Assembly: GCA_964019135.1 (NCBI GenBank)
Contig: OZ025248.1
Location: 43,269,670-43,333,669, forward strand
Reading direction: 5' to 3'
Origin: Arenicola marina
Lineage: Eukaryota > Annelida > Polychaeta > Arenicolidae
DNA length: 64,000 nt
A program made the translations under genes and the position numbers. A model generated the notes under the pieces. It saw only the letters and a program-made list of their open reading frames with translations, was not told where the DNA came from and ran no database searches. Positions within the stretch are counted from its first letter, which is position 1. Every line of letters begins with the position of its first letter. Below, piece by piece: positions 11,043 through 34,679 of the stretch.

Positions 11043-11318
11043 CTCTGGAGCAACCGAGTGATGTCACAATTGGGGATATCACAACGACAACCATCACCGT
11101 GACGTGGAAGGATCCAAACGGGACTTTTGATCAAATCAGGGTTGATTGTAGCCCAACACATGGCGGCGTGCCTAACACAACGTGTGTGGGTAAAGCGATC
11201 CAGAATGCGACTTGCGAAGGCCTCACCCCAGGGTCCCGCTACAATGTGACCGTCAGCAGCGTGTTCGATGACAGCTCGGTACCCCCAGCATCGGCTCCAT
11301 CACTGGAGGCTGTCACGG
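11043..11318 (+). CDS. FN3 exon 1 of 11 (receptor ectodomain)
   Basis: One complete FN3 domain in a 276-bp phase 1-1 exon. The acceptor is TTTATCTGCAG and the donor CACGG|GTAAGT. The frame reads LEQPSDVTIGD, the strand-B Trp at residue 22 (VTW), and the strand-F SRYNVTVSSV with Tyr 67. It is the most divergent of the eleven, with three cysteines (36, 48, 58) where its neighbours have two (36, 58), and several N-glycosylation sequons. FN3 domains are extracellular beta-sandwich modules, and a symmetric phase 1-1 exon is the classic form for shuffling and tandem duplication. Confidence 0.9.
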
Positions 11319-11998
11319 GTAAGTAACAGGGCTGATGGTGGGCGCTGTCACGGGTAAGTAACAGGGCTGGTGGTGGACGCTGTCACGGGTAAGTTACAGG
11401 GCTGGTGGTGGACGCTGTCACGGGTAAGTAACAGGGCTGGTGGTGGACGCTGTGACGGTTAAGTAATGGGGCTGATGGTGGATACTGTCGGGGGTAAATA
11501 ACAGGCCTGGTGGTGGACGCTGTCACGGGTAAGTAACAGGGCTGGGGTGGACGCTGTCACGTGCAAGTAACAGAGCTGGTGTTAGACGCTTTCACGGGTA
11601 AGTAACAGGGCTGATGGTGGACGCTGTCACTGGTAAGTAACAGGGCTGATGGTGGACGCTGTCACGGGTAAGTAAGAAGGATGGTGATGGACGCTTTCAC
11701 TGGTAAGTAACAGGGCTGGTGGGGGACGCTGTCACGAATAAGTAACAGGTTTGATGATGGACGCTGTCACGGGTAAGTAACAGAGCTGATGGTGGACGCT
11801 GTCACGGGTAAGTAACAGGGATGGTGGCGGCCGCTGTCACGAGTAAGTAACAAGGCTGATGGTGGATGCTGTCACGGGTAAGTAACAAGGCTGGTGGTGG
11901 ATGTTGTCACGGGTAAGTAACAGGGCTGGGGATGGATGTTGTCACGGCTAGGTAACAGGGCAGGTGGTGGATGCTGTCACTGGTAGGTAACAGGCCTG
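11319..11998. repeat. 35-bp splice-donor minisatellite, intron 1
   Basis: About 19 units follow the exon directly. The unit runs from GGTAAGTAACAGGGCTGG through GTGGTGGACGCTGTCACG, 35 bp, so each copy restores the exon end plus a full 5' splice site (GCTGTCACGG|GTAAGTAA). The first unit is in register with the real junction at 11318/11319. Confidence 0.95.
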
Positions 11999-13159
11999 TT
12001 TGGTGGTGTCGTGCACTGAGCGTCGTAGCCCGCCAGGTGGTTGGGTGGCGACACTGGCTGTTGACACTGGGATGTTGACTAGGGTGTTGACATGGGGGGC
12101 GGGGGGCGGTGAAACTGGGGTGTTGACACTGGGGTGTTGACTGTGGATTGGGTTGCCCTATGGTGGGTTTCGCAAAGATGGTATTTAGTAATAGCAGTAT
12201 TAACTTTTATACCGGCAAATTTTGTCATTTAGGTAAGACGGACCCGCAATACTGTTTCACAAACGCAAATAAAGAAGGTATTAGCAATGACCGGTATTAA
12301 GCGATTTAATGCCGATCTGATTATCAGTGACGTCGCAACATATCGTTACAAAACGCTAAACGTGACCCTGCAATGGCAGAATGGTACTCGCATCCTATCT
12401 CGCTAGTTCGTATCTTGTTCTGCTTTCATGATTCACCTTCTGTTCATATCGTGGTGACGGGACCTATTAACTGTGTATTTGTCTAACCCTGTGTTAGTGT
12501 TCAGAGTGTGAAAGGGTATCGAGCGTAGATTCCCTAGAAGCCGCCAATGGGCGATTGTTGTTTCAGTGTCGTCGCCCACTTGTACCCAACACCATCATCA
12601 TTCCACAAATCTTTCGCGAAGTAATTAATAAAAGTTTATACAATAACTTTTTAAAATAATACTGTCAGTATTTCTGTATGTTTGGTACATATTTACACGA
12701 TAAAATGAGTTGATTGTTGCATTTCTGTTAAGTTAAAGTGTATGCCATAACATTACCGTAACGATGAGCCAGTACTAGCTGCGCTGAATTGTTATTATAC
12801 TCTCTTATTGTATGGAATACAAGTACACGTGGAGGTGTGGGTCTCATTGGGAACATAGCTAACATATAGACTACACGCACATCGGTTTGTTAGCTGACAT
12901 ATACCGTGTGACGTCACACAGAACAGAGATGCGCACTGAGCTAGTCGGTCCCCTGTACTGGGCTGTTTGATATGTAGACTCCCACCAACTAGTGAGACTG
13001 TGTCAGCAAGCTGGGGGATGCCACAGATAGTCCATATATATGTACGATAGTTATCCATATCGTGGATTAAAACCCACGAAATGGATTATTATCGTAAATG
13101 ATAGGCGTGAGTAATACGTGAGCTATGTTAAAACAATGGTCCACCCTGTTTATCTGCAG
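11999..13159. repeat. FN3-intron block, full copy (intron 1)
   Basis: A roughly 1.16-kb block from TGGTGGTGTCGTGCACTGAG to the acceptor of the next exon, repeated with few changes in introns 3-6 and in part in intron 2. It starts with a short GTTGACACTGGG-rich patch and a G run, then unique AT-rich sequence, then the 3' part also seen at 10682. No gene is seen. The open frame in its last third has an in-frame stop in this copy. Confidence 0.9.
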
Positions 13160-13435
13160 ATCTGGAGCCACCGACTGATGTCACAATTGGGGATATCACA
13201 ACGACAGCCATCACAGTGACGTGGACGGATCCAATCGGGAACTTTGATCAAATCAGGGTTGATTGCAACACGACAAATGGCGACAACAGTGACACACAAC
13301 ATGTCCCGGACAACAGCTCGACGGCGACATGCGTCAACCTCACCCCGGGGGCCCACTACCTGGTGACCGTCAGCAGCGTATTAAATGACGGCTCGGCACA
13401 CCCAGTGTCGGCTGAATCAAAGGAGGCTGTCACGG
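13160..13435 (+). CDS. FN3 exon 2 of 11
   Basis: 276 bp, phase 1-1, acceptor TTTATCTGCAG, donor CACGG|GTAAGT. It reads LEPPTDVTIGD, VTWTDPIGNFDQIRVDC, and HYLVTVSSVLNDGSAHP, ending SAESKEAVTG. The core is of the WTDPIGNF type shared with exons 8-11, while its ending is shared only with exon 11. Cysteines lie at 36 and 58. The domain is complete with the usual Trp and Tyr. Confidence 0.9.
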
Positions 13436-13495
13436 GTAAGTAAGGGAGCTGGTGGTGGACACTGTCACGGACAAGTAACAGGGCAGGGGTTAGGC
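13436..13495. repeat. 35-bp donor repeat, one to two units (intron 2)
   Basis: Only one or two degenerate units of the junction repeat follow this exon (GTAAGTAAGGGAGCTGGTGG, then CACGGACAAGTAACAGGG). Intron 2 is thus the one FN3-cassette intron without a large donor array, and it instead holds the 37-bp array. Confidence 0.8.
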
Positions 13496-13499
13496 AGGG

Positions 13500-15118
13500 T
13501 GTTACTGACGACCCGGTGGGTTACCTTGTTGTATAGTGTTACTGACGACCCAGTGGGTTACCTTGTTGTATATTGTTACTGACGACCCGATGGGTTACCT
13601 TGTTGTATAGTGTTACTGACCATTCCGTGGGTTACTTGTTGTATAGTGTTACTGACGACCCGGTGGGTGACCTCGTTGCATAGTGTTACTGACGACACGG
13701 TAGATTATCTTGTTGTGTAGTGTTACTGACGACCCGATGGGTTACCTCGTTGTATAGTGTTACTGACGACCCGGTGGGTTACATTGTTGTATAGCGTTAC
13801 TGACAGCCCGGTGGGTTACCTTGTTGTATAGTGTTACTGACGACCCAACGGGTTACCTTGTTGTATAGTGTTACTGACGACTCGGTGGGTTACCTTGTTG
13901 CATAGCGTTACTGACAACCCGGTGGGTTACCTTGTTGTATAGTGTTACTGACGACCCGGTTGGTTACCTTGTTGTATAGTGTTATTGACGATCCGGTGGA
14001 TTACCTTGTTGTGTAGTGTTACTGACGACCCGATGGGTTTCCTTGTTGTATAGTGTTACTGACGACCCGGTGAGTTACCTTGTTGTATAGTGTTACTGAC
14101 GACCCGGTGGGTTACCTCGTTGTATAGTGTTACTGACGACCCGATGTGTTACCTTGTTGTATAGCGTTACTGACGACCTGGTATGTTACCTTGTTGTATA
14201 GTGTTACTGACGACCCGGTGGGTTACCTTGTTGTATAGCGTTACTGACGACCCGGTGGGTTACCTTGTTGTATAGTGTTACTGACGACCCGGTTGGTTAC
14301 CTTGTGGTATAGTGTTATTGACGATCCGGTGGATTACCTTGTTGTGTAGTGTTACTGACGACCCGGTGGGTTACCTTGTTGTATAGTGTTACTGACGACC
14401 CGGTGGGTTACCTTGTTGTATAGCGTTACTGTCAACCCGGTGGGTTACCTTGTTGTATAGTGTTACTGACGACCCGGTTGGTTACCTTGTGGTCTAGTGT
14501 TATTGACGATCCGGTGGATTACCTTGTTGTGTAGTGTTACTGACGACCCGGTGGGTTACCTTGTTGTATAGTGCTACTGACGACCCGATGGGTTTCCTTG
14601 TTGCATAGTGTTACTGACGACCCGGTGGGTTACCTTGTTGTATAGTGTTACTGACGACCCAACGGGTTACCTTGTTGTATAGCGTTACTGACGACTCCGT
14701 GGGTTACTTGTTGTATAGCGTTACTGACGACCCGATGGGTTACCTTGTTGTATAGTGTTACTGACGACCCGGTGGGTTACCTTGTTGTATAGTGTTACTG
14801 ACGACCCGGTATGTTACCTCGTTGTATAGTGTTACTGACGACTCCGTGGGTTACCTTGTTGTATAGTGTTACTGACGACCTGGTATGTTACCTTGTTGCA
14901 TAGTGTTACTGACGACTCCGTGGGTTACCTTGTTGTATAGTGTTACTGACGACCTGGTATGTTACCTTGTTGCATAGTGTTACTGACGACCCGATGGGTT
15001 ACCTTGTTGTATAGTGTTACTGACGACCCGGTGGGTTACCTTGTTGTATAGCGTTACTGACAACCCGGTGGGTTACCTTGTTGTATAGTGTTACTGACGA
15101 CCCGATGGGTTACCTTGT
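13500..15118. repeat. 37-bp GTTACTGACGACCC minisatellite, intron 2
   Basis: About 43 units of GTTACTGACGACCCGGTGGG plus TTACCTTGTTGTATAGT at 37-bp spacing, with blocks of several units repeated as larger groups. Each unit carries a pyrimidine stretch followed by TAG. Related shorter arrays end introns 7-10. Confidence 0.95.
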
Positions 15119-16169
15119 TGGGGGGGGGGGGTGAAACTGGGGTGTTGACACTAGGGTGTTGACTGTGGATTGGGTTGCCCTATGGTGGGTTTCGCAAAGA
15201 TGGTATTTAATAATAGCAGTATTAACGGCAAATTTTGTCATTTAGGTACTACGGACCCGCAATACCGTTTTACAAACGCAAATAAAGAAGGTATTAGCAA
15301 TGACCGGTATTAAGCGATTTAATGCCGATCTGATTATCAGTGACGTCGCAACATATCGTTACAAAACGCTAAACGTGACCCTGCAATGGCAGAATGGTAC
15401 TCGCACCCTATCTCGCTAGTCCGTGTCTTGTTCTGCTTTCATGATTCACCTTCTGTTCGTATCGTGGTGACGGGACCTATTAACTGTGTATTTGTCTAAC
15501 CCTGTGTTAGTGCTGAGAGTGTGAAAGGGTATCGAGCGTAGATTCCCTAGAAGCCGCCAATGGGCGATGGTTGTTTCAGTGTCGTCGCCCACTTGTACCC
15601 AACACCATCATCATTTCACAAATCTTCCGCGAAGTATTAATAACAGATTATACAATAATTTATAAAATAATACTGTCAGTATTTCTGTATGTTTGTTACA
15701 TATATACACGATAAACTGAATAGCTTGTTGCATTTCTGTTAAGTTAAAGTGTATGCCATAACATGACAGTAACCATGACCCAGTACTAGCTGCGCTGAAT
15801 TGTTATATTAGTCACTTATTGTATGGGATGCAAGTACACGTGGAGGTGTGGGTCGCATTGGGAACATAGCTAACATCTATGATTACACACATCGGTTTGT
15901 TAGCTGACATATACCGTGTGGCGTTACACAGAGCAGTAATGCGCATTGAGCTGGTCGGTCCCCTGTACTGGGCTGTTTGGTATGTAGACTCCCACCAACT
16001 AGTGAGACTGTGTCAGCAAGCTGCGGGATGCCACAGATGGTCCATATATATGCACGATATTTATCCATATCATAGATTGAAGCACACAAAATGGATTATT
16101 ATCGGAAATGGTACGCGTGAGTAATACGTGAAATATGTTAAAACAATGGTCCAACCTGTTTATCTGCAG
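15119..16169. repeat. FN3-intron block, 5'-shortened (intron 2)
   Basis: After a run of 12 G the block resumes at GTGAAACTGGGGTGTTGACA and continues to the acceptor of the next exon. The first roughly 110 bp seen in other copies are missing, replaced by the 37-bp array. No gene seen. Confidence 0.85.
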
Positions 16170-16445
16170 ATCTGGAGCAACCGACTGATGTCAAAATTAG
16201 GAATATCACAACGACAACCATCACAGTGACGTGGAAGGATCCAAACGGGACCTTTGATCAAATCAGGGTTGATTGTAACACGACGAATGGCGCCAACAGT
16301 GACACAAAGTACGTCGCTGGCGGTGCCGAGACGGCGAGCTGCGTGGACCTCACCCCGGGGGCCCACTACCTGATGACCGTCAGCAGCGTGTTGAATGACA
16401 GCTCGGCACCCCCAGCATCGGCTCCATCACAGGAGGCTGTCACGG
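16170..16445 (+). CDS. FN3 exon 3 of 11
   Basis: 276 bp, phase 1-1, normal acceptor and donor. It reads LEQPTDVKIRNI, VTWKDPNGTFDQIRVDC, then NSDTKYVAGGAETASC, with HYLMTVSSVLNDSSAPP and the ending SAPSQEAVTG. It founds the WKDPNGTF subfamily (exons 3-7), whose members are nearly identical. Cysteines at 36 and 58; sequons at NGT, NTT and NDS. Confidence 0.9.
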
Positions 16446-17158
16446 GTAAGTAACAGAGCTGGTGTTGGACGCTGTCACGGGTAAGTAACAGAGCTGGTGT
16501 TGGACGCTGTCACGGGTAAGTAACAGTGCTGGAGGTGAACGCTGTCGTGTGTAAGTAACATGGCTGGTGGTGGACGCTGTCACGAGTAAGTAACTGGGCT
16601 GGGGGTGGACGCTGTCACGTGTAAGTAACAGGGCTGGTGGTGGACGCTGTCACGGGTAAGTAACAGCTGGTGGTGGACGCTGTCACGGGTAAGTAACAGG
16701 GCTGGTGGTAGACGCTGTCACGGGTAAGTAACAGGGCTGGTGGTGGACGCTGTCACGGGTAGGTAACAGGGCTGGGGGTGGACGCTCTCACGTGTAAGTA
16801 ACAGGGCTGGTGATAGACGCTGTCACGGGTAAGTAACAGGGCTGGGGGTGGACGCTGTCACGTGCAAATAACATAGCTGGTGGTAGACCCTGTCACGGGT
16901 AAGTAACAGGGCTGATGGTGGACGCTGTCACGGGTAAGTAACAGGGCTGGTGGTGGACGCTGTCACGGGTAAGTAACAGGTCTGATTGTGGACGCTGTCA
17001 CGGGTACGTAACAGGCTGGTGGTGGATACTGTCAAGGGTAAGTAACAAGGCCGGTGGTGGATGCTGTCACGGGTAAGTAACGGGGCTGGGGATGGATGCT
17101 GTCACGGCTAGGTAACAGGGCTGGTGGTGGATGCTGTCACTGGTAGGTAACAGGCCTG
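16446..17158. repeat. 35-bp splice-donor minisatellite, intron 3
   Basis: About 20 units of the junction-spanning repeat, starting in register at the exon end. Most keep GTAAGTAA; a few read GTAGGTAA or GCAAATAA, which would be weaker donors. Confidence 0.95.
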
Positions 17159-18312
17159 TTTGGTGGCGTCGTTTACTGAGCATCGTAGCCCGCCAGGTGG
17201 TTGGGTGGCGACACTGGGTGTTGATACTGGGATGTTGACTAGAATGTTGACATGTGGTGGGGGGGTGTGACACTAGGGTGTTGACACTAGGGTGTTGACA
17301 GTTGATTGGGTTGCCCTATGGTGGGTTTCGCAAAGATGGTATTTAGTGATAGCAGTATTAACTTTTATACCGGCAAATCTTGTCATTTAGGTACGACCGA
17401 CCCGCAATACCGTTTCACAAACGCAAATAAAGAAGGTATTAGCAATGACCGGTATTAAGCGATTTAATGCCGATCTGATTATCAGTGACGTCGCAACATA
17501 TCGTTACAAAACGCTAAACGTGACCCTGCAATGGCAGAATGGTACTCGCACCCTATCTCGCTAGTTCGTATCTTGTTCTGCTTTCATGAATCACTTTCTG
17601 TTCGTATCGTGGAGACGGGACCTATTAACTGTGTATTTGTCTAACTCTGTGTTAGTGTTCAGAGTGTGAAAGGGTATCGAGCGTAGATTCCCTGGAAGCC
17701 GCCAATGGGCGATTGTTGTTTCAGTGTCGACGCCCACTTAGATACAGCACCATCATCATTCCACAGCTCTTCCGCGAAGTAATTAATAAAAATACAATAA
17801 CTTTTTAAAATAATACTGTCAGTATTTCTGTATGTTTGTTACATATTTACATGATAAACTGAACAGCTTGTTGCATTTCTGTTAAGTTAAAGTGTATGCC
17901 ATAACATGACAGTAACCATGAGCCAGTACTAGCTGCGCTGAATTGTTATATTAGTCCCTTATTGTATGGAATACAAGTACACGTGGAGGTGTGGGTCTCA
18001 TTGGGAACATAGCTAACATATACGATTACACACATCGGTTTGTTAGCTGACATATACCGTGTGGCGTTACACAGAGCAGTAATGCGCATTGAACTAGTCG
18101 GTCCCCTGTACTGGGCTGTTTGGTATGTAGACTCCCACCAACTAGTGAGACTGTGTCAGCAAGCTGCGGGATGCCACAGATGGTCCATATATATGTACGA
18201 TATTTATCCATATCATAGATTGAAGCACACAAAATGGATTATTATCGGAAATGGTAGGCGTGAGTAATACGTGAAATATGTTAAAACAATGGTCCACCCT
18301 GTTTATCTGCAG
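17159..18312. repeat. FN3-intron block (intron 3)
   Basis: Full copy of the intron block, from TGGTGGCGTCGTTTACTGAG to the acceptor TTTATCTGCAG. It is very close to the copies in introns 4-6, fitting recent duplication of the whole cassette. No gene seen. Confidence 0.9.
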
Positions 18313-18588
18313 ATATGGCGCAACCGACTGATGTCAAAATTGGGAATATCACAACGACAACCATCACAGTGACGTGGAAGGATCCAAACGGGACCTTTGA
18401 TCAAATCAAGGTTGATTGTAACACGACGAATGGCGCCAACAGTGACACAAAGTACGTCGCTGGCGGTGCCGAGACGGCGAGCTGCGTGGACCTCACCCCG
18501 GGGGCCCACTACCTGGTGACCGTCAGCAGCGTGTTGAATGACAGCTCGGCACCACCAGCATCGGCTCCATCACAGGAGGTTGTCACGG
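18313..18588 (+). CDS. FN3 exon 4 of 11
   Basis: 276 bp, phase 1-1. WKDPNGTF subfamily, almost identical to exon 3. It begins MAQPTDVKIGNI (the ATG is internal to the exon, not a start codon) and has a conservative Arg to Lys change after DQI. It ends SAPSQEVVTG before GTAAGT. Cysteines at 36 and 58, strand-F Tyr present. Confidence 0.9.
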
Positions 18589-19968
18589 GTAAGTAACAGA
18601 GCTGGTGTTGGACGCTGTCACGGGTAAGTAACAGTGCTGGAGGTGAACGCTGTCGCGTGTAAGTAACATGGCTGGTGGTGGACGCTGTCACGAGTAAGTA
18701 ACTGGGCTGGGGGTGGACGCTGTCACGTGTAAGTAACAGGGCTGGTTGTGGACGCTGTCACGGGTAAGTAACAGGGCTGGTGGTGGATGCTGTCACGTGT
18801 AAGTAACAGGGCTGGTGGTGGACGCTGTCACGGGTAAGTAACAGGGTTGGTAGTAGACGCGGTCACGGGTAAGTAACAGCTGGTGGTGGACGCTGTCACG
18901 GGTAAGTAACAGGGCTGGTGGTGGACGCTGTCACGGGTAGGTAGCAGGGCTGGGGGTGGACGCTGTCACGTGTAAGTAACAGAGCTGGTGGTAGACCCTG
19001 TCACGGGTAAGTAACAGGGCTATTGGTGGACGCTGTCACGGGTAAGTAACAGAGCTGATGGTGGAAGCAGTCACGGGTAAGTAACAGGGATAGTGAAGGA
19101 CGCTTTTACTGGTAAGTAACAGGGCTGGTGGTGGACGCTGTCACGGAGAAGTAACATGGTTAATGGTGGACGCTGTCACGGGTAAGTAACAGAGCTGGTG
19201 TTGGACGCTGTCACGGGTAAGTAACAGTGCTGGAGGTGAACGCTGTCGCGTGTAAGTAACAGGGCTGGTGGTGGACGCTGTCACGAGTAAGTAACATGGC
19301 TGGTGGTGGACGCTGTCACGAGTAAGTAACTGGGCTGGTGGTGGATGCTGTCACGTGTAAGTAACAGGGCTGGTGGTGGACGCTGTCACGGGTAAGTAAC
19401 AGGGTTGGTAGTAGACGCGGTCACGGGTAAGTAACAGCTGGTGGTGGACGCTGTCACGGGTAAGTAACAGGGCTGGTGGTGGACGCTGTCACGGGTAGGT
19501 AACAGGGCTGGGGGTGGACGCTGTCACGGGTAAGTAACAGAGCTGATGGTGGACGCAGTCACGGGTAAGTAACGGGGATAGTGAAGGACGCTGTCACGGG
19601 TAAGTAACAGAGCTGATGGTGGAAGCAGTCACGGGTAAGTAACAGGGATAGTGAAGGACGCTTTCACTGGTAAGTAACAGGGCTGGTGGTGGACGCTGTC
19701 ACGGATAAGTAACATGGTTAATGGTGGACGCTGTCACGGGTAAGTAACAGGGCTGGTGGTGGACGCTGTCACGGGTAAGTAACATGTCTGATTGTGGACG
19801 CTGTCACGGGTAAGTAACAGGCTGGTGGTGGATGCTGTCACGGGTAAGTAACAAGGCCGGTGGTGGATGCTGTCACGGGTAAGTAACGGGGCTGGGGATT
19901 GATGCTGTCACGGCTGGGTAACAGGGCTGGTGGTGGATGCTGTCACTGGTAGGTAACAGGCCTGTTTG
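18589..19968. repeat. 35-bp splice-donor minisatellite, intron 4
   Basis: About 39 units. A group of units (from the AGAGCTGGTGTTGGACGCTG unit onward) occurs at 18596 and again near 19190, so several units were copied together. The array is twice as long as in introns 3 and 5, though the flanking exons and blocks are nearly identical, which shows fast length change. Confidence 0.95.
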
Positions 19969-21177
19969 GTGGCGTCGTTCACTGAGCGTCGTAGCCCGCC
20001 AGGTGGTTAGGTGGCGACACTGGGTGTTGATACTGGGATGTTGACCAGAATGTTGACATGTGGTGGGGGGGGGTGACACTGGGGTGTTGACACTGGGATG
20101 TTGACTAGGATGTTTACATGTGGTGGGGGGGGGGGTGACACTGGGGTGTTGACACTAGGGTGTTGACAGTGGATTGGGTTGCCCTATGGTGGGTTTCGCA
20201 AAGATGGTATTTAGTGATAGCAGTATTAACTTTTATACCGGCAAATTTTGTCATTTAGGTACGACGGATCCGCAATACCGTTTCACAAACGCAAATAAAG
20301 GTATTAGCAATGACCGGTATTAAGCGATTTAATGCCGATCTGATTATCAGTGACGTCGCAACATATCGTTACAAAACGCTAAACGTGACCCTGCAATGGC
20401 AGAATGGTACTCGCACCCTATCTCGCTAGTTCGTATCTTGTTCTGCTTTCATGGTTCACCTTTTGTTCGTATCGTGGTGACGGGACCTATTAACTGTGTA
20501 TTTGTCTAACCCTGTGTTAGTGTTCAGAGTGTGAAAGGGTATCGAACGTAGATTCCCTGGAAGCCGCCAATGGGCGATTGTTGTTTCAGTGTCGACGCCC
20601 ACTTAGACACAGCACCATCATCATTCCACAGCTCTTCCGCGAAGTAATTAATGAAAATACAATAAGTTTTTAAAATAATACTGTCAGTATTTCTGTATGT
20701 TTGTTACATATATACACGATAAACTGAATAGCTTGTTGCATTTCTGTTAAGTTAAAGTGTATGCCATAACATGACAGTAACCATGACCCAGTACTAGCTG
20801 CGCTGAATTGTTATATTAGTCCCTTATTGTATGGAATACAAGTACACGTGGAGGTGTGGGTCGCATTGGGAACATAGCTAACATATATGATTACACACAT
20901 CGGTTTGTTAGCTGACATATACCGTGTGGCGCTACACAGAGCAGTGATGCGCATTGAACTAGTCGGTCCCCTGTACTAGGCTGTTTGGTATGTAGACTCC
21001 CACCAACTAGTGAGACTGTGTCAGCAAGCTGCGGGATGCCACAGATGGTCCATATATATGCACGATATTTATCCATATCATAGATTGAAGCACACAAAAT
21101 GGATTATTATCGGAAATGGTACGCGTGAGTAATACGTGAAATATGTTAAAACAATGGTCCACCCTGTTTATCTGCAG
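19969..21177. repeat. FN3-intron block (intron 4)
   Basis: Full copy with a small internal duplication of the GTTGACACTGGGATGTTGAC patch and two G runs around 20065 and 20128. It runs to the acceptor of exon 5. The internal open frame has a stop here (CTGTACTAGG near 20976). Confidence 0.9.
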
Positions 21178-23667: not shown

Positions 23668-24590
23668 GTAAGTAACAGAGCTGGTGTTGGACGCTGTCAC
23701 GGGTAAGTAACAGTGCTGGAGGTGAACGCTGTCGCGTGTAAGTAACATGGCTGGTGGTGGACGCTGTCACGAATAAGTAACTGGGCTGGGGGTGGACGCT
23801 GTCACGTGTAAGTAACAGGGCTGATGGTGGATGCCGTCACGTGTAAGTAACAGGGCTGGTGGTGGACGCTGTCACGGGTAAGTAACAGGACTGGTGGTGG
23901 ACGCTGTCACGGGTAAGTAACAGGGCTGGTGGTAGACGCGGTCACGGGTAAGTAACAGCTGGTGGTGGACGCTGTCACGGGTAAGTAACAGGGATAGTGA
24001 AGGACGCTGTCACGGGTAAGTAACAGAGCTGATGGTGGAAGCGGTCACGGGTAAGTAACAGGGATAGTGAAGGACTCTATCACTGGTAAGTAACAGGGCT
24101 GGTGGTGGACGCTTTCACGGATAAGTAACAGGGTTGATGGTGGACGCTGTCACGGGTAAGTAACAGAGTTGATGGTGGACGCTTTCACGGGTAAGTAACA
24201 GGATTGATGGTGGACGCTGTCACGGGTAAGTAACAGAGTTGATGGTGGACGCTTTCACGGGTAAATAACAGGGCTGGTGGTGGACGCTGTCACGTTTAAA
24301 TAACAGGGCTGATGGTGGACGCTGTCACGGGTAAGTAACAGGGCTGGTGGTGGACGCTGTCACGGGTAAGTAACAGGTCTGATTGTGGACGCTGTCACGG
24401 GTAAGTAACAGGCTGGTGGTGGATGCTGTCACGGGTAAGTAACAGGCTGGTGGTGGATGCTGTCACGGGTAAGTAACAAGGCCGGGGGTGGATGTTGTCA
24501 CGGGTAAGTAACGGGGCTGGGGATTGATGCTGTCACGGCTAGGTAACAGGGCTGGTGGTGGATGCTGTCACTGGTAGGTAACAGGCCTGT
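23668..24590. repeat. 35-bp splice-donor minisatellite, intron 6
   Basis: About 26 units, resembling intron 4 in its first units and then diverging by local expansion of a pair of GTTGATGGTGGACGC units near 24120-24260. Confidence 0.95.
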
Positions 24591-25745
24591 TTGGTGGCGT
24601 CGTTCACTGAGCGTCGTAGCCCGCCAGGTGGTTGGGTGGCGACACTGGGTGTTGATACTGGGATGTTGACTAGAATGTTGACATTTAGTGGGGGGGGGGG
24701 TGACACTGGGGTGTTGACACTAGGGTGTTGACAGTTGATTGGGTTGCCCTATGATGGGTTTCGCAAAGATGGTATTTAGTGATAGCAGTATTAACTTTTA
24801 TACCGGCAAATCTTGTCATTTAGGTACGACCGACCCGCAATACCGTTTCACAAACGCAAATAAAGAAGGTATTAGCAATGACCGGTATTAAGCGATTTAA
24901 GGCCGATCTGATTATCAGTGACGTCGCAACATATCGTTACAAAACGCTAAACGTGACCCTGCAATGGCAGAATGGTACTCGCACCCTATCTCGCTAGTTC
25001 GTATCTTGTTCTGCTTTCATGAATCACTTTCTGTTCGTATCGTGGTGACGGGACCTATTAACTGTGTATTTGTCTAACCCTGTGTTAGTGTTCAGAGTGT
25101 GAAAGGGTATCGAGCGTAGATTCCCTGGAAGCCGCCAATGGACGATTGTTGTTTCAGTGTCGACGCCCACTTAGACACAGCACCATCATCATTCCACAGC
25201 TCTTCCGCGAAGTAATTAATAAAAATACGATAACTTTTTAAAATAATACTGTCAGTATTTCTGTATGTTTGTTACATATTTACACGATAAACTGAATAGC
25301 TTGTTGCATTTCTGTTAAGTTAAAGTGTATGCCATAACATGACAGTAACCATGAGCCAGTACTAGCTGCGCTGAATTGTTATATTAGTCCCTTATTGTAT
25401 GGAATACAAGTACACGTGGAGGTGTGGGTCTCATTGGGAACATAGCTAACATCTATGATTACACACATCGGTTTGTTAGCTGACATATACCGTGTGGCGT
25501 TACACAGAGTAGTAATGCGCATTGAGCTGGTCGGTCCCCTGTACTGGGCTGTTTGGTATGTAGACTCCCACCAACTAGTGAGACTGTGTCAGCAAGCTGC
25601 GGGATGCCACAGATGGTCCATATATATGCACGATATTTATCCATATCATAGATTGAAGCACACAAAATGGATTATTATCGGAAATGGTAGGCGTGAGTAA
25701 TACGTGAAATATGTTAAAACAATGGTCCACCCTGTTTATCTGCAG
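24591..25745. repeat. FN3-intron block (intron 6), last full copy
   Basis: Last full copy of the block. Later cassette introns lack it and use a different 3' region, so there is a switch of intron type at exon 7. Confidence 0.9.
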
Positions 25746-26021
25746 ATCTGGCGCAACCGACTTATGTCAAAATTGGGAATATCACAACGACAACCATCAC
25801 AGTGACGTGGAAGGATCCAAACGGGACCTTTGATCAAATCAGGGTTGATTGTAACACGACGAATGGCGCCAACAGTGACACAAAGTACGTCGCTGGCGGT
25901 GCCGAGACGGCGAGCTGCGTGGACCTCACCCCGGGGGCCCACTACCTGGTGACCGTCAGCAGCGTGTTGAATGACAGCTCGGCACCCCCAGCATCGGCTC
26001 GACCAGTAAACGCTGTCACGG
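25746..26021 (+). CDS. FN3 exon 7 of 11 (chimeric)
   Basis: 276 bp, phase 1-1. The body is of the WKDPNGTF type (NSDTKYVAGGAETASC), but the ending reads SARPVNAVTG, as in exons 8-10 (SAPPVNAVTS), in place of SAPSQEAVTG. It therefore looks like a crossover between the two subfamilies, with the breakpoint in its last 30 bases or so, exactly where intron type also changes. The donor is still CACGG|GTAAGT. Complete FN3 with cysteines 36 and 58. Confidence 0.9.
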
Positions 26022-26480
26022 GTAAGTAACAGGGCTGGTGGTGGACGCTGTCACGGGTAAGTAACAGGACTGGTGGTGGACGCTGTCACGGGTAAGTAAC
26101 AGTGCTGGAGGTGAACGCTGTCGCGTGTAAGTAACATGGCTGGTGGTGGACGCTGTCACGAGTAAGTAACTGGGCTGGGGGTGGACGCTGTCACGTGTAA
26201 GTAACAGGGCTGGTGGTGGACGCTGTCACGGGTAAGTAACAGGGCTGGTGGTGGTCGCTGTCACGGGTAAATAACAGAGCTGGTGGTAGACGCTGTCACG
26301 GGTTAGTAACAGATATGGTGTTAGGCGCTGTCACGGGTAAGTAACAGGAATGGTGGTAGACGTTGTCACCTGTAAGTAACAAGGATAGGTCTGGTGGTGG
26401 ATGCTGGGTCGGGTAAGTAACAGGGATGGGGGTAGACCCTGTCACGGGTAAGTAACAGGGCTGGTGGTGGACGCTGTCAC
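26022..26480. repeat. 35-bp splice-donor minisatellite, intron 7
   Basis: About 13 units from the junction onward, then directly the 37-bp array. Late units are more degenerate (GGGTCGGGTAAGTAACAGGG). The same end sequence recurs at the end of intron 8's array. Confidence 0.95.
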
Positions 26481-26779
26481 TGTTACTGACGACCCGATGG
26501 GTTACTTTGTTGTATAGCGTGACCGACTCGATGGGTTACCCTGTTATATAATGTTACTGACGACCCGATGTGTCACCTTGTTGTATAGTGTTACTGACGA
26601 CCCGATGGGTTACCTTGTTGTATGGTGTAACTGACGACCTGGTGGGTTACCTTGTTGTATAATGTTACTGACGACCCGATGGGTTATCTAGTTGTATAGT
26701 GTTACTGGCGATCCGATGTGTTACCTTGTTGTCTAGTGTTACTGGCGACCCGATGGATTACCTTTTTTTATATCTGCAG
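26481..26779. repeat. 37-bp acceptor-side minisatellite, intron 7
   Basis: About eight units of the GTTACTGACGACCCGATGGG / TTACCTTGTTGTATAGT repeat. The last unit runs into the true acceptor (GATTACCTTTTTTTATATC then TGCAG), so the pyrimidine tract of the acceptor is itself part of the array. Confidence 0.9.
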
Positions 26780-27055
26780 CTCTAGAGCAACCGACTGGTG
26801 TCACGATTGTGGAAACCAAAACGACAACCATCAAAGTGACGTGGACGAATCCAATCGGGAACTTTGATCAAATCAGGGTTGATTGTAACACGACAAATGG
26901 CGACAAGAGTGACACACAACATGTGACTAACAAAACCGCGACGGCGACATGCGTCAACCTCACCCCGGGGGCGCACTACCTGGTGACCGTCAGCAGCGTG
27001 TTGAATGACAGCTCGGCACACCCAGCATCGGCTCCACCAGTAAACGCTGTCACGA
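26780..27055 (+). CDS. FN3 exon 8 of 11
   Basis: 276 bp, phase 1-1. It reads LEQPTGVTIVETKTTT, VTWTNPIGNFDQIRVDC, then KSDTQHVTNKTATATC, HYLVTVSSVLNDSSAHP and PPVNAVT. Donor is CACGA|GTAAGT, with A in place of G at the last exon base. It founds the WTNPIGNF group (exons 8-11). Cysteines at 36 and 58. Confidence 0.9.
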
Positions 27056-29333
27056 GTAAGTAACAGGACTGGTGTTGGACGCTGTCACGGGTCAGTAACA
27101 GGGCTGGTGGTGGATGCTGTCACGGGTAAGTAACAGGGCTGGTGGTGGACGCTGTCACGGGTCAGTAACAGGGCTGGTGGTGGATACTGTCACGGGTAAG
27201 TAACAGGGCTGGTGGTGGACGCGGTCACGGGTAAGTGACAGGGCTGGTGGTGGACGCTGTCACGGGTCAGTAACAGGGCTGGTGGTGGACGCTGTCACGG
27301 GTAAGTAACAGGGCTGGTAGTGGACACTGTCACGGGTCAGTAACAGGGCTGGTGGTGGATGCTGTCATGGGTAAGTAACAGGGCTGGTGGTGGACGCTGT
27401 CAGGGGTCAGTAACAGGGCTGGTGGTGGATGCTGTCACGGGTAAGTAACAGGGCTGGTGGTGGACGCTGTCACGGGTCAGTAACAGGGCTGGGGGTGGAT
27501 GCTGTCACGGGTAAGTAACAGGGCTGGTGGTGGACGCTGTCACGGGTAAGTGACAGGGCTGGTGGTGGACGTTGTCACGGGCATGTAAAAGGGTTGGTGG
27601 TGGACGCTGTCGCTTGTAAGTAACAGGGATGTTGGCAGACGCTGTCACGGGTAAGTAACAGGGCTGGTGGTGGACGCTGTCACGGGTCAGTAACAGGGCT
27701 GGTGGTGGATGCTGTCACGGGTAAGTAACAGGGCTGGTGGTGGACGCTGTCACGGGTAAGTGACAGGGCTGGTGGTGGACGCTGTCACGGGTCAGTAACA
27801 GGGCTGGTGGTGGACGCTGTCACGGGTAAGTGACATGGCTGGTGGTGGATGCTGTCACGGGTCAGTAACAGGGCTGGTAGTGGACGCTGTCACGGGTAAG
27901 TGACAGGGCTGGTAGTGGACGCTGTCACGGGCAAGTAAAAGGGTTGGTGGTGGACGCTGTCGCTTGTAAGTAACAGGGATGTTGGCAGACGCTGTCACGG
28001 GTAAGTAACAGGGATGGTGGTAGATGCTGTCACATGTGAGTAAGAAGGCTGCTGTTGGACCCGGTCACGCGTAAGTAACAGGGCTGGTGGTGGATGCTGT
28101 CAATGGTAAGTAACAGGGCTGGTGGTGGACGCTGTCACGGGTAAGTAACAGGGATGGTTGTGGACGCTGTCACGGGTAAGTAACAGGGCTGGTGGTGGAC
28201 GCTGTCACGTGTAAGTAACAGGGCTGGTGGTGGACGCTGTCACGGGTAAGTAACAGGGCTGGTGATGGACGCTGTCACCGGCAAGTAAAAGGGATGGTGG
28301 TGGACGCTTCCACGGGTAAGTAACAGGGCTGGTGGTGGACGCTGTCACGGGTCAGTAACTGGGCTGGTGGTGGACGCTGTCACGGTTAAGTAACAGGGTT
28401 GGTGGTGGATTCTGTCATGGGTAAGTAAAAGAGCTGGTGGTGGTCGCTGTCTCGGGTAAATAACAGGGCTGGTGGAGGACGCTGTCACGGGTCAGTAACA
28501 GGGCTGGTGGTGGATGCTGTCACTGGTAAGTAACAGGGCTTGTGGAGGATGCTGTTACGGGTAAGTAACACGGATGGTGGTAGACGCTGTCACGTGTAAG
28601 TAACAGGGCTGGTGGTGGACGCTGTCACGGGTAAGTGACAGGGCTGGTGGTGGACGCTGTCACGGGTCAGTAACAGGGCTGGTGGTAGACACTGTCACTT
28701 GTAAGTAACAGGGCTAGTGGTGAACGCTGTCGCGAGTGAGTAACAGCGTTGGTGGTGGACGCTGTCACCTGTAAGTAACAGAGCTGGTGGTGGACGCTGT
28801 CACGTGTAAGTAAGAGGGCTGGTGGTGAATGCTGTCGCGGGTAAGTAACAGGGCTGGCGGTGGACACTGTCACGGGGAAGTAACAGGGCTGGAGGTGGAC
28901 GCCTTCACGGGTAAGTAACAGGGCTGGTGGTGGATGCTGTCACGGGTAAGTAACAGGGCTGGTGTCGGACGCTGTCACGGGTAAGTAACAGGGCTGGTGG
29001 TGGACACTGTCACGGGTAACTAACAGTGCTGGAGGTGAACGCTGTCACGGGTAAGTAACAGGGCTGGAGGTGAACGCTGTCACGGGTAAGTAACAGGGCT
29101 GGAGGTGGACGCTGTCACGGGTAAGTAACAGGGCTGGTGGTAGACGCTGTCACGGGTTAGTAACAGATATGGTGTTAGGCGCTGTCACGGGTAAGTAACA
29201 GGAATGGTGGTAGACGTTGTCACCTGTAAGTAACAAGGATATGTCTGGTGCTGGATGCTGGGTCGGGTAAGTAACAGGGATGGGGGTAGACCCTGTCACG
29301 GGTAAGTAACAGGGCTGGTGGTGGACGCTGTCA
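27056..29333. repeat. 35-bp splice-donor minisatellite, intron 8 (largest)
   Basis: About 65 units, the longest junction array in the window. Many units alternate GTAAGTAA with GTCAGTAA, which loses the A at +3, so about every second unit here is a poor donor. Multi-unit blocks (the AAAGGGTTGGTGG / GCTTGTAAGTAACAGGGATG pair) recur several times. Confidence 0.95.
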
Positions 29334-29707
29334 CTGTTACTGACGACCCGATGGGTTACTTTGTTGTATAGCGTGACTGACTCAATGGGTTACCCTGTTA
29401 TATAATGTTACTGACGACCCGATGTGTCACCTTGTTGTATAGTGTTACTGACGACCCGATGGGTTACCTTGTTGTATGGTGCAACTGACGACCTGGTGGG
29501 TTACCTTGTTGTATAATGTTACTGACGACCCGATGGGTTACCTTGTTGTATGGTGTAACTGACGACCTGGTGGGTTACCTTGTTGTATAATGTTACTGAC
29601 GACCCGATGTGTTATCTAGTTGTATAGTGTTCCTGGCGATCCGATGTGTTACCTTGTTGTATAGTGTTACTGGCGACCCGATGGATTACCTTTTTTTATA
29701 TCTGCAG
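29334..29707. repeat. 37-bp acceptor-side minisatellite, intron 8
   Basis: About ten units ending in the acceptor TTTTTTTATATCTGCAG. Same order of variants as in introns 7 and 9, with one pair of units duplicated. Confidence 0.9.
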
Positions 29708-29983
29708 CTCTAGAGCAACCGACTGGTGTCACGATTGTGGAAACCAAAACGACAACCATCAAAGTGACGTGGACGAATCCAATCGGGAACTTTGATCAAA
29801 TCAGGGTTGATTGTAACACGACAAATGGCGACAAGAGTGACACACAACATGTGACTAACAAAACCGCGACGGCGACATGCGTCAACCTCACCCCGGGGGC
29901 CCACTACCTGGTGACCGTCAGCAGCGTGTTGAATGACAGCTCGGCACACCCAGCATCGGCTCCACCAGTAAACGCTGTCACGA
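29708..29983 (+). CDS. FN3 exon 9 of 11
   Basis: 276 bp, phase 1-1, translation identical to exon 8 over the whole domain. At the DNA level the two differ at hardly any base. The donor is CACGA|GTAAGT. Such identity means very recent duplication or ongoing gene conversion. Confidence 0.9.
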
Positions 29984-31101
29984 GTAAGTAACAGGACTGG
30001 TGTTGGACGCTGTCACGGGTAAGTAACAGAGCTGGTGTTGGACGCTGTCACGGGTAAGTAACAGTACTGGAGGTGAACGCTGTCGCGTGTAAGTAACAGG
30101 GCTGGTGGTGGACACTGTCACGGGTCAGTAACAGGGCTGGTGGTGGATGCTGTCACGGGTAAGTAACAGGGCTGGTGGTGGACGCTGTCACGGGTCAGTA
30201 ACAGGGCTGGTGGTGGATGCTGTCACTGGTAAGTAAAAGGGTTGGTGGTGGACGCTGTCGCTTGTAAGTAACAGGTATGTTGGCCGACGCTGTCACGGGT
30301 AAGTGACAGGGCTGGTGGTGGACGCTGTCACGGGTCAGTAACAGGGCTGGTGGTGGATGCTGTCACGGGTAAGTAACAGGGCTGGTGGTGGACGCTGTCA
30401 CGGGTCAGTAACAGGGCTGGTGGTGGATGCTGTCACGGGTAAGTAACAGGGCTGGTGGTGGACGCGGTCACGGGTAAGTGACAGGGCTGGTGGTGGACGC
30501 TGTCACGGGTCAGTAACAGGGCTGGTGGTGGACGCTGTCACGGGTAAGTAACAGGGCTGGTAGTGGACACTGTCACGGGTCAGTAACAGGGCTGGTGGTG
30601 GAGCTGTCACGGGTAAGTAACAGGGCTGGTGGTGGACGCTGTCACGGGTCAGTAGCAGGGCTGGGGGTGGATGCTGTCACGGGTAAGTAACAGGGCTGGT
30701 GGTGGACGCTGTCACGGGCAAGTGACAGGGCTGGTGGTGGACGTTGTCACGGGGATGTAAAAGGTTGGTGGTGGACGCTGTCGCTTGTAAGTAACAGGGA
30801 TGTTGGCAGACGCTGTCACGGTTAAGTAACAGGGCTGGTGGTGGACGCTGTCACGGGTCAGTAACAGGGCTGGAGGTGGATGCTGTCACGGGTAAGTAAC
30901 AGGGCTGGTGGTGGACGCTGTCACGGGTAAGTGACAGGGCTGGTGGTGGACGCTGTCACGGGTCAGTAACAGGGCTGGTGGTGGACGCTGTCACGGGCAA
31001 GTAAAAGGGTTGGTGGTGGACGCTGTCGCTTGTAAGTAACAGGGATGTTGGCAGACGCTGTCACGGGTAAGTAACAGGGATGGTGGTGGACGCTGTCACT
31101 G
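29984..31101. repeat. 35-bp splice-donor minisatellite, intron 9
   Basis: About 32 units, sharing long runs of unit order with introns 8 and 10, including the alternating GTAAGTAA and GTCAGTAA forms. Confidence 0.95.
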
Positions 31102-31397
31102 TTACTGACGACCCGATGGGTTACTTTGTTGTATAGCGTGACTGACTCAATGGGTTACCCTGTTATATAATGTTACTGACGACCCGATGTGTCACCTTGT
31201 TGTATAGTGTTACTGACGACCCGATGGGTTACCTTGTTGTATGGTGTAACTGACGACCTGGTGGGTTACCTTGTTGTATAATGTTACTGACGACCCGATG
31301 TGTTATCTAGTTGTATAGTGTTCCTGGCGATCCGATGTGTTACCTTGTTGTATAGTGTTACTGGCGACCCGATGGATTACCTTTTTTATGTCTGCAG
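31102..31397. repeat. 37-bp acceptor-side minisatellite, intron 9
   Basis: About eight units leading into the acceptor TTTTTTATGTCTGCAG of exon 10. A + strand open frame runs from the array into the exon, but this is repeat readthrough and not an alternative start I can support. Confidence 0.9.
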
Positions 31398-31673
31398 CTC
31401 TAGAGCAACCGACTGGTGTCACGATTGTGGAAACCAAAACGACAACCATCAAAGTGACGTGGACGAATCCAATCGGGAACTTTGATCAAATCAGGGTTGA
31501 TTGTAACACGACAAATGGCGACAAGAGTGACAGACAACATGTGACTAACAAAAGCGCGACGGCGACATGCGTCAACCTCACCCCGGGGGCCCACTACCTG
31601 GTGACCGTCAGCAGCGTGTTGAATGACAGCTCGGCACACCCAGCATCGGCTCCACCAGTAAACGCTGTCACGA
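31398..31673 (+). CDS. FN3 exon 10 of 11
   Basis: 276 bp, phase 1-1, WTNPIGNF group. It differs from exons 8 and 9 by a Thr to Arg change (SDRQHV) and a Thr to Ser change (NKSATATC). The ending PPVNAVT and the donor CACGA|GTAAGT are shared with exons 8 and 9. Confidence 0.9.
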
Positions 31674-33771
31674 GTAAGTAACAGGACTGGTGTTGGACGC
31701 TGTCACGGGTAAGTAACAGAGCTGGTGTTGGACGCTGTCACGGGTAAGTAACAGTACTGGAGGTGAACGCTGTCGCGTGTAAGTAACAGGGCTGGTGGTG
31801 GACACTGTCACGGGTCAGTAACAGGGCTGGTGGTAGATGCTGTCACGGGTAAGTAACAGGGCTGGTGGTGGACGCTGTCACGGGTCAGTAACAGGGCTGG
31901 TGGTGGATGCTGTCACGGGTCAGTAACAGGGCTGGTGGTGGATGCTGTCACGGGTAAGTAACAGGGCTGGTGGTGGACGCTGTCACGGGTCAGTAACAGG
32001 GCTGGAGGTGGATGCTGTCACGGGTAAGTAACAGGGCTGGTGGTGGACGCGGTCACGGGTCAGTAACAGGGCTGGTGGTGGACGCTGTCACGGGTAAGTA
32101 ACAGGGCTGGTAGTGGACACTGTCACGGGTCAGTAACAGGGCTGGTGGTGGATGCTGTCACGGGTAAGTAACAGGGCTGGTGGTGGACGCTGTCACGGGT
32201 CAGTAACAGGGCTGGGGGTGGATGCTGTCACGGGTAAGTAACAGGGCTGGTGGTGGACGCTGTCACGGGCAAGTGACAGGGCTGGTGGTGGACGTTGTCA
32301 CGGGCATGTAAAAGGGTTGGTGGTGGACGCTGTCGCTTGTAAGTAACAGGGATGTTGGCAGACGCTGTCACGGTTAAGTAACAGGGCTGGTGGTGGACGC
32401 TGTCACGGGTCAGTAACAGGGCTGGTGGTGGATGCTGTCACGGGTAAGTAACAGGGCTGGTGGTGGACGCTGTCACGGGTAAGTGACAGGGCTGGTGGTG
32501 GACGCTGTCACGGGTCAGTAACAGGGCTGGTGGTGGACGCTGTCACGGGCAAGTAAAAGGGTTGGTGGTGGACGCTGTCGCTTGTAAGTAACAGGGATGT
32601 TGGCAGACGCTGTCACGGGTAAGTAACAGGGATGGTGGTAGATGCTGTCACATGTAAGTAGGAAGGCTGGTGTTGGACGCGGTCACGCGTAAGTAACAGG
32701 GCTGGTGGTGGACGCTGTCAATGGTAAGTGACAGGGCTGGTGGTGGACGCTGTCACGGGTAAGTGACAGGGATGGTTGTGGACGCTGTCACGGGTAAGTA
32801 ACAGGGCTGGTGGTGGACGCTGTCACGTGTAAGTAAGAGGGCTGGTGGTGGACGCTGTCACGGGTGAGTAACAGGGCTGGTGGTGGACGCTGTCACCGGC
32901 AAGTAAAAGGGATGGTGGTGGACGCTTCCACGGGTAAGTAACAGGGCTGGTGGTGGACGCTGTCACGGGTCAGTAACTGGGCTGGTGGTGGACCCTGTCA
33001 CGGTTAAGTAACAGGGCTGGTGGTGGATTCTGTCACGGGTAAGTAAAAGAGCTGGTGGTGGTCGCTGTCTCGGGTAAATAACAGGGCTGGTGGTGGACGC
33101 TGTCACGGGTCAGTAACAGGGATGTTGGCAGATGCTGTCACGGGTAAGTAACAGGGATGGTGGTAGATGCTGTCACATGTAAGTAACAAGGCTGGTGTTG
33201 GACGCCGTCACGGGTAAGTAACAGGGCTGGTGGTGGACGCTGTCAATGGTAAGTAACAGGGCTGGTGGTGGACGCTGTCACGGGTAAGTAACAGGGCTGG
33301 TAGTGGACGCTGTCACGTGTAAGTAACAGGGCTGGTGGTGGACGCTGTCACGGGTAAGTAACAGGGCTGATGGTGGACGCTGTCACCGGCAAGTAAAAGG
33401 GATGGTGGTGGACGCTTCCACGGGTAAGTAAGAGGGCTGGTGGTGGACGCTGTCACCGGTCAGTAACTGGGCTGGTGGTGGACGCTGTCACGGTTAAGTA
33501 ACAGGGCTGGTGGTGGATTCTGTCACGGGTAAGTAAAAGAGCTGGTGGTGGTCCCTGTCTCGGGTCAGTAACAGGGCTGGTGGTGGATGCTGTCACTGGT
33601 AAGTAACAGGGCTTGTGGTGGTTGCTGTTACGGGTAAGTAACAGGGATGGTGGTAGACGCTCTCACGTGTAAGTAACAGGGCTGGTGGTGGACGCTGTCA
33701 CGGGCAAGTAACAGGGCTGGAGGTGGATGCTGTCCCTTGTGAGTAACAGGGTTGGTGGTGGACGGTCTCAG
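31674..33771. repeat. 35-bp splice-donor minisatellite, intron 10
   Basis: About 60 units. The first half matches intron 9 in unit order and the second half matches intron 8, so it looks like a recombinant of the two. Confidence 0.95.
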
Positions 33772-34036
33772 TGTTACTGACGACCCGATGGGTTACCTTG
33801 TTGTATAGTGCTACTGACGACCCGATGGATTACGTAGTTGTATTGTGTCACTAACGACCCGATGGGTTACCTTGTTGTATAGTGTTACTGGCACCCCGAT
33901 GGGTTACCTAGTTGTATGGTGTTACTGACGACTCGATGGATTACGTAGTTGTATAGTGTCACTAACGACCCGATGGGTTACCTTGTTGTATAGTGTTACT
34001 GATGACCCGATGGGTTATCTTGTTGTGTATCTGCAG
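33772..34036. repeat. 37-bp acceptor-side minisatellite, intron 10
   Basis: About seven units. The last reads GGGTTATCTTGTTGTGTAT and is followed directly by CTGCAG, so the acceptor of exon 11 is a repeat unit with only the last bases changed. Confidence 0.9.
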
Positions 34037-34312
34037 CTCTAGAGCAACCGACTGGTGTGGCGATTGGGGAAACCACAACGACAACCATCAAAGTGACGTG
34101 GACGAATCCAATCGGGAACTTTGATCAAATCACGGTTGATTGTAACACGACAAATGGCGACAAGAGTGACACACAACATGTGACTAACAAAAGCGCGACG
34201 GCGACATGCGTCAACCTCACCCCGGGGGCCCACTACCTGGTGACCATCAGCAGCGTGTTGAATGACGGCGCAGCTCCCCCAGTGTCGGCTGAATCAAAGG
34301 AGGCTGTCACGG
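34037..34312 (+). CDS. FN3 exon 11 of 11 (chimeric)
   Basis: 276 bp, phase 1-1. The first two thirds follow exons 8-10 (VTWTNPIGNFDQITVDC, NKSATATC), but the ending is VSAESKEAVTG as in exon 2, with donor CACGG|GTAAGT. It is thus a second chimera and closes the run of 276-bp cassettes. The junction codon to the next exon is GTA (Val). Confidence 0.9.
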
Positions 34313-34640
34313 GTAAGTAACAGGGCTGGTGCTGGACGCTGTCATGGGTCAGTAATAGGGCTGGTGGTGGACGCTGCCACGGGTCAGTAACAGTCCTGGT
34401 GGTGGACACTGTCACGGGTAAGTAACTGGGCTGGTGGTGGTCGCTGTCACGGGTAAGTAACCGGGCTGGTGGTGTACGCTGTCACAGGTAAGTAACAGGG
34501 ATGGTGGTGGACGCTGTCACGGGTAAGTAACAGGGCTGGTGGTAGACGCTGTTACGGGTAAGTAACAGGGCTGGTGGTGGACGCTGTCATCGGTCAGTTA
34601 CCGGGCTGGTGATGGATGCTGTCACGGATGAGTACTAGGT
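34313..34640. repeat. 35-bp splice-donor minisatellite, intron 11
   Basis: About nine units, the last of the junction arrays, fading near 34640 (CACGGATGAGTACTAGG). Confidence 0.9.
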
Positions 34641-34679
34641 CTTCAGGCGTTCATTTTTGCTGTCATAGCTCGGCAACGT

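Follow-up and report, generated by a model that had tools for sequence, protein, structure and literature searches.

A 35-bp minisatellite in register with the exon-intron boundary behind eleven duplicated FN3-type exons of Arenicola marina

The window analysed here comprises 64,000 nt of Arenicola marina contig OZ025248.1, and all coordinates are positions within it. Eighteen exons were placed in the window, and the first eleven are related 276-bp exons that each carry a 35-bp tandem array at the 3' boundary. These eleven exons have phase 1-1 throughout, as judged by open frames, and all 11 frames are open. TCTGCAG stands directly before and GTAAGT directly after each of them, and their pairwise DNA identity, with all 11 compared, is 76-100% (differences up to 24%), exons 8-10 being 99-100% identical to one another. 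The Pfam scan took in four of the eleven (exons 1, 3, 8 and 11), and all four are fibronectin type III domains (FN3; Pfam fn3, E 1.2e-10 to 3.2e-14); the other seven are FN3-type by similarity. The best solved-structure relatives of exon 1 are FN3 repeats of fibronectin and tenascin. Exons 12-18 were placed via splice consensus and reading frame. The extent of the 35-bp arrays was determined by wraparound alignment begun at each of the 11 donors, and arrays were also called by Tandem Repeats Finder. The exons and their arrays are arranged as follows.

11043-11318, + strand: FN3 exon 1, 276 bp, phase 1-1 (fn3 E 3.2e-14)
11319-12006, + strand: 35-bp boundary array, 20 unit starts, 14 with GTAAGT (wraparound alignment)
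13160-13435, + strand: exon 2, FN3-type by similarity, 86% identical to exon 3
13436-13490, + strand: 35-bp boundary array of 1.6 units only, 37-bp array next
13499-15120, + strand: 37-bp array (TACTGAC ... TATAG unit), 43.8 units, in intron 2, 1,049 bp before exon 3
16170-16445, + strand: FN3 exon 3 (fn3 E 1.6e-12)
16446-17166, + strand: 35-bp boundary array, 21 unit starts (wraparound alignment)
18313-18588, + strand: exon 4, FN3-type, 97% identical to exon 3
18589-19972, + strand: 35-bp boundary array, 40 unit starts (wraparound alignment)
21178-21453, + strand: exon 5, FN3-type (similarity)
21454-22243, + strand: 35-bp boundary array, 23 unit starts (wraparound alignment)
23392-23667, + strand: exon 6, FN3-type (similarity)
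23668-24597, + strand: 35-bp boundary array, 27 unit starts (wraparound alignment)
25746-26021, + strand: exon 7, FN3-type, mosaic (final ~21 bp as in exons 8-10, the body as in exons 3-6)
26022-26480, + strand: 35-bp boundary array, 13 unit starts (wraparound alignment)
26481-26772, + strand: 37-bp array, stops 7 bp before exon 8 (Tandem Repeats Finder)
26780-27055, + strand: FN3 exon 8 (fn3 E 2.2e-11), donor CGA/GTAAGT, predicted weaker than most copies downstream
27056-29334, + strand: 35-bp boundary array, 65 unit starts (wraparound alignment)
29335-29700, + strand: 37-bp array, stops 7 bp before exon 9 (Tandem Repeats Finder)
29708-29983, + strand: exon 9, FN3-type, donor as in exon 8
29984-31099, + strand: 35-bp boundary array, 32 unit starts (wraparound alignment)
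31100-31383, + strand: 37-bp array, stops 14 bp before exon 10 (Tandem Repeats Finder)
31398-31673, + strand: exon 10, FN3-type, donor as in exon 8
31674-33770, + strand: 35-bp boundary array, 60 unit starts (wraparound alignment)
33770-34026, + strand: 37-bp array, stops 10 bp before exon 11 (Tandem Repeats Finder)
34037-34312, + strand: FN3 exon 11 (fn3 E 1.2e-10), same final ~35 bp as exon 2, with a body that resembles exons 8-10
34313-34642, + strand: 35-bp boundary array, 10 unit starts (wraparound alignment)
54554-54721, + strand: 168-bp exon, assigned to the same gene, placed by splice consensus, unrelated boundary array next
54695-54888, + strand: 52-bp boundary array, four GTGAGT/GTAAGT donors spaced 52 bp (Tandem Repeats Finder)

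Behind all eleven 276-bp exons the 35-bp array continues the exon end in register, as is directly observed when the last 14 exon bases are compared with the unit: 11-13 of the 14 match in the true register, and the best alternative among the 35 registers reaches 5-9. A first-pass annotation of this DNA had described a unit straddling the exon-intron junction in register behind ten of the exons, with about 12-13 exon bases in each unit. The register is borne out, as is the exon-like part of the unit, but the unbroken exon-unit match is mostly shorter, with 10 bases in exons 1, 2, 3, 5 and 11, 8 in exons 4 and 6, and 12 in exon 7; exons 8-10 end in A where the unit has G. Exon 2, which the annotation had excepted, proves to carry 1.6 units of its own ahead of the 37-bp array.

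Introns 1-11 hold 19.7, 1.6, 20.6, 39.5, 22.6, 26.6, 13.1, 65.1, 31.9, 59.9 and 9.4 units, respectively, with 86-93% identity to the consensus. The earlier estimate was some 10.5 kb and 300 units; the measured values are 10,849 bp and 313 unit starts. Most units carry a consensus donor, as had been claimed: GT is present in 278/313 and GTAAGT in 218/313 unit starts, whereas only 3.8 GTAAGT would be expected in the arrays from their base composition. Outside positions 11001-34700 this hexamer occurs 10 times in 40,300 bases of the window. The internal full units differ from the consensus at 2.7 bases on average (40/294 are perfect) and the first units at 0-4 bases; one first unit is common to introns 3-6 and another to introns 8-10.

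The same unit consensus was found in all ten introns with enough units to derive one, where internal units number from 8 to 64; only intron 2 has too few. The order of variant units, examined by aligning seven pairs of arrays, is kept between duplicated introns, while whole blocks differ. The alignment of introns 3 and 5 spans 21 units, of which 17 are identical, with one 2-unit gap. Between introns 9 and 10, 20 of 28 aligned units are identical, and a block of 30 units close to the end is confined to intron 10. Introns 8 and 9 share 15 identical of 23 aligned units, introns 8 and 10 share 21 of 45, and introns 4 and 6 share 9 of 21, with larger gaps. The alignment of introns 7 and 8 comprises 12 units (6 identical) scattered along the longer array, and that of introns 1 and 3 just 13 units, two of them identical. 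Shared consensus and inherited unit order together indicate that the array probably predates the exon duplications and that blocks were gained or lost later. To judge from these alignments, its presence before the duplications, followed by ordinary minisatellite behaviour, is most likely; conversion spreading the unit between introns would also explain the shared consensus.

Two exons have ends that do not match their bodies. Exon 7 differs from exon 5 at 3 of the first 255 bases and at 7 of the last 21 (7/10 differences; binomial p 1.4e-6), and it differs from exon 8 at 2 of those last 21. The body of exon 11 is closer to exons 8-10, but 16 of its 24 differences from exon 8 fall within the last 46 bases (p 6.7e-8), and none of its 28 differences from exon 2 falls within the last 35 (p 0.02). 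The windows in these tests were picked after inspection of the data. Both exons thus seem to have had their coding ends changed by exchange near the arrays. The locus also suggests that minisatellites at exon boundaries can be duplicated along with the exons and may in turn modify coding ends.

The 35-bp unit is not the only boundary repeat at the locus. In the 52-bp array at 54695-54888 the three downstream copies match 24, 23 and 22 of the last 30 bases of the 168-bp exon (shuffle means 7.5 to 7.8; 0/5,000 shuffles reached the observed values). Its unit is unrelated to the 35-bp unit, and the process that generates boundary arrays therefore seems to have arisen at least twice in the same gene. 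With this exon included, 12 of the 18 placed exons have a boundary-overlapping array.

In introns 7-10 the 35-bp array passes directly into a 37-bp array that stops 7-14 bp before the next exon, and between them these arrays account for 99.0 to 99.7% of the intron. The last 37-bp copy provides, as read from the sequence, a pyrimidine stretch ahead of the acceptor. The unit consensus contains TACTGAC, which resembles the branchpoint consensus, and all five 37-bp arrays include a spacing of 27 bases between TACTGAC and the following AG, besides others ranging from 2 to 167. The motif occurs 40 times in the ~44 units of intron 2, but only 3-5 times in the ~7-10 units of each of introns 7-10, and the branchpoint-like reading is therefore weaker for the latter. 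The idea that the 37-bp arrays duplicate the 3' boundary was rejected, as the first 30 bases of exon 8, the exon compared, score 9 against the unit with a shuffle mean of 9.9 (p 0.68).

Donor strength was predicted as U1 pairing over 11 bases with ViennaRNA, using the sequence of the U1 5' end. The donors of exons 1-7 and 11 gave -13.0 kcal/mol, those of exons 8-10 -7.2, and those of exons 12-18 (n=7) -4.5 to -11.9, three of the latter (-6.8, -5.4 and -4.5) being weaker than -7.2. In introns 1-7 no copy surpasses the true donor in predicted strength, although many equal it (22/39 in intron 4, for example); in intron 11 one of nine copies is stronger. An in-frame stop lies at intron bases 6-8 after all 11 exons, so that use of any later donor would truncate the protein at the same point and could not lengthen it. 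The first donor must consequently be favoured if a normal protein is to be made, in agreement with the first-pass annotation, and the staggered isoforms that it had also envisaged are unlikely as longer proteins.

Selection on the units was assessed in 294 internal full units, which are related to one another, and on a tree of just 35 bases. The donor hexamer has 5.7% mismatches compared with 7.7% overall (rank 9 of 35 windows), and 5.3 inferred changes per position on the tree compared with 7.3 for the rest of the unit (rank 4/35). Because the units are related and the tree is so short, this is a hint of constraint, not proof, and the evidence for selection on the donors is weak at best. Such mild donor conservation does not decide for or against the U1 sink suggested earlier. 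As a separate observation, the TAA at unit bases 6-8 is kept as a stop codon, whether TAA, TGA or TAG, in 292 of the 294 units, its T being unchanged in all. Stop retention was set aside as evidence, since it was noticed post hoc and the independent changes are few (0, 5 and 3 at the first, second and third base).

We put at roughly 75% the probability that the arrays are largely neutral minisatellites of the type called 'mirages' in amphioxus, spread by exon duplication and tolerated since splicing settles on the donor next to the exon. In this view an ancestral FN3 exon would have undergone a short tandem duplication spanning its 5' splice site. The duplication would have grown into the 35-bp array, which would then have been copied along with exon and intron, to 11 copies, its length continuing to shift through gain and loss of blocks of units. 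The arrays would be mostly neutral in terms of selection, with the spliceosome taking the exon-adjacent donor through exon definition, through its being transcribed first, or both, and use of a later donor would lead to a truncated or decayed message through the stop just inside the intron. Exchange in or around the arrays may have rewritten the last 20-46 bases of 2 of the 11 exons. By analogy with the published mirages, regular splicing would be undisturbed here.

Several observations weigh against this account. Six of the 18 placed exons (12-15, 17 and 18) have no boundary-overlapping array. Of the 35 windows, the nine-base one that begins at the donor has changed least, a weak hint of constraint. 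Moreover, 52/64, 25/31 and 43/59 copies in introns 8, 9 and 10 (120/154) are predicted to pair with U1 more strongly than the exon's own donor. With the true donor weaker than most copies in these introns, passive tolerance requires positional control, and it is likely that position (exon definition or transcription order), and not strength alone, selects the donor. Introns 7-10, where 13 to 65 donor copies are followed by ~7-10 37-bp units, might then be a natural extreme test of donor choice in which, for introns 8-10, position governs and leakage feeds a stop-terminated ectodomain isoform at a level set by array length; we regard this extension as tentative and rather doubtful.

The strong copies in introns 8-10, together with the stop common to all 11 exons, could also mean that the arrays are regulatory decoys, whose copies bind U1 and rival the true donor so that some transcripts stop just inside the intron (to decay or to encode a short ectodomain) and the length of the array sets how much full-length protein is made. 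The polyadenylation signals AATAAA and ATTAAA occur 0 and 0 times in the 10,849 bp of arrays, compared with 10 and 1 times in the 9,715 bp making up the rest of introns 1-10, so that U1 might conceivably guard against early polyadenylation; however, this count may simply follow G+C content (0.57 in the arrays, 0.44 in the rest). The donor bases lack clear extra conservation, the copies in introns 1-7 never exceed the true donor, and a donor of -7.2 is ordinary at a locus where three of the seven donors of exons 12-18 are weaker. Published amphioxus mirages are furthermore said, in excerpts of PMC3087553 and PMC3902484, to leave mRNA normal. On balance we consider a decoy function improbable.

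The near identity of exons 8-10 might instead point to assembly artefacts or uncollapsed haplotypes, and a figure legend in PMC3087553 mentions one globin mirage that looks aberrantly assembled in the genome draft. This would be hard to reconcile with units that mostly deviate from the consensus, with structured differences in array length and unit order, and with open frames in all 11 exons, and it seems to us quite unlikely. The mosaic ends of exons 7 and 11 would fit units that are kept as a diversification device, promoting recombination that shuffles FN3 exon ends. Such swaps are, however, to be expected as a by-product wherever a tandem array is present; the breakpoints are within the exon and 5' of the 10-14 shared bases, just two of eleven exons are affected, and the test windows were chosen post hoc, leaving this the least probable explanation, with a very slight chance of being correct. 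Largely neutral arrays, inherited with their exons, remain the preferred interpretation.

As for the host gene, Pfam scans of exons 12, 14, 15 and 18 (4 of the 7 downstream exons) showed only exon 15 to pass the fn3 cut-off, the other three being below it; fn3 is thus above cut-off in exons 1, 3, 8, 11 and 15, and the Dep-1 FN3 model was matched below its cut-off only. With respect to an R3 receptor tyrosine phosphatase, Pfam scans of 20 reading frames showed no protein tyrosine phosphatase domain. According to an excerpt of PMC5336234, an R3 orthologue was not found in B. floridae. Ten reading frames scanned in the upstream region (1-11 kb) gave nothing above the curated Pfam cut-off, and Rfam (gathering threshold) and tRNA scans of the whole window gave 0 hits. 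An exact CTGTCACGGGTAAGTAACAG scan for related loci gave 0 matches in viral contigs and 0 in prokaryote contigs.

Upstream of exon 1, a ~2.2-kb block is seemingly present about three times at 3062-8916, with similar minus-strand frames at 3253, 5477 and 7897 and no Pfam match above cut-off. Downstream of the 276-bp exons, a Ty3/gypsy-type long terminal repeat (LTR) retrotransposon at 41338-46155 (reverse transcriptase, RNase H and integrase; LTRs of 153 bp, 98.7% identical) is inserted in a 47-bp minisatellite (40923-41337 and 46156-46658), with ACGGT flanking it on both sides. An open reading frame with a reverse transcriptase domain (50983-54129; RVT_1 E 1.1e-29), taken for a long interspersed nuclear element, sits in the intron after the exon at 50552-50851, and a short TGAATC repeat lies near 54470. 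The segment at 55455-55560 resembles, by eye, a tRNA-derived short interspersed nuclear element (GGTGTAGTGGTTAGC ... GGGTTCGAATCC); ARAGORN reported no tRNA there. In the whole window 34 tandem arrays, from a list drawn from Tandem Repeats Finder, cover 29,621 of 64,000 bases, and three of them stop ~25-45 bp before acceptors (46658, 50507 and 56096).

Splicing models disagree on the choice among several equal donors. For competing 5' splice sites in mammals, Krainer et al. (1990; cited in PMC8724738) reportedly dealt, by the title, with SF2 as a factor activating proximal sites. At the present locus several equal donors likewise face one acceptor, but the normal protein needs the most intron-distal donor of up to 65, which is the opposite of proximal preference. 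Related exons are followed here by ten paralogous introns in which the donor copies number 10 to 65 and by one that has almost none, so that strength, number and position of donors would be separable.

Boundary-spanning repeats have a precedent in amphioxus, where the original report of the Adh3 mirage is said, by citing papers, to be that of Canestro et al. (2002; doi 10.1093/nar/gkf386). In the excerpts of PMC3087553 and PMC3902484, mirages are minisatellites that duplicate exon/intron boundaries in the Adh3, globin, troponin C and PGBD5 genes. The remark in the first-pass annotation that it knew of no described family of receptor genes built this way is therefore unsupported, although none was found in an FN3 gene, and an open-licence literature search (titles and abstract starts) gave no paper dealing with such arrays in FN3 genes. 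Excerpts of PMC3087553 give units of 10-72 bp for Adh3 and 150-160 bp for globin, describe boundary units in the globin mirage as excluded from homogenisation, and take Adh3 data and globin reverse transcription PCR to suggest no interference with regular splicing; in PMC3902484 the Adh and troponin C mirages are said to produce no aberrant mRNAs.

As far as these excerpts go, the arrays described here resemble the amphioxus mirages (Adh3, BflGb6/BflGb9, troponin C and PGBD5) in being tandem repeats over an exon-intron boundary, in carrying a splice signal in many but not all units, and in unit length, with 35 and 52 bp falling within the published ranges. Copy number varies between haplotypes there and between duplicated introns here. 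They differ in number, a single gene having 313 unit starts spread over 11 introns, compared with 3-6 units in BflGb6 and 2-7 in PGBD5, in being co-duplicated with the exon, in having 37-bp partner arrays, and in that some true donors are predicted to be weaker than their copies. The Rogers model of intron gain by tandem AG/GT duplication, as discussed in an excerpt of PMC3087553, also starts from a tandem duplication across a splice signal; unlike in that model, there is no sign here, judged from sequence alone, of a copy turned into a new exon. The kind of repeat is thus already known, and what is new is its size, its co-duplication with 11 exons, the unrelated 52-bp array in the same gene, four introns made almost entirely (99%) of two minisatellites, donors outranked by their copies, the shared stop and the mosaic exon ends.

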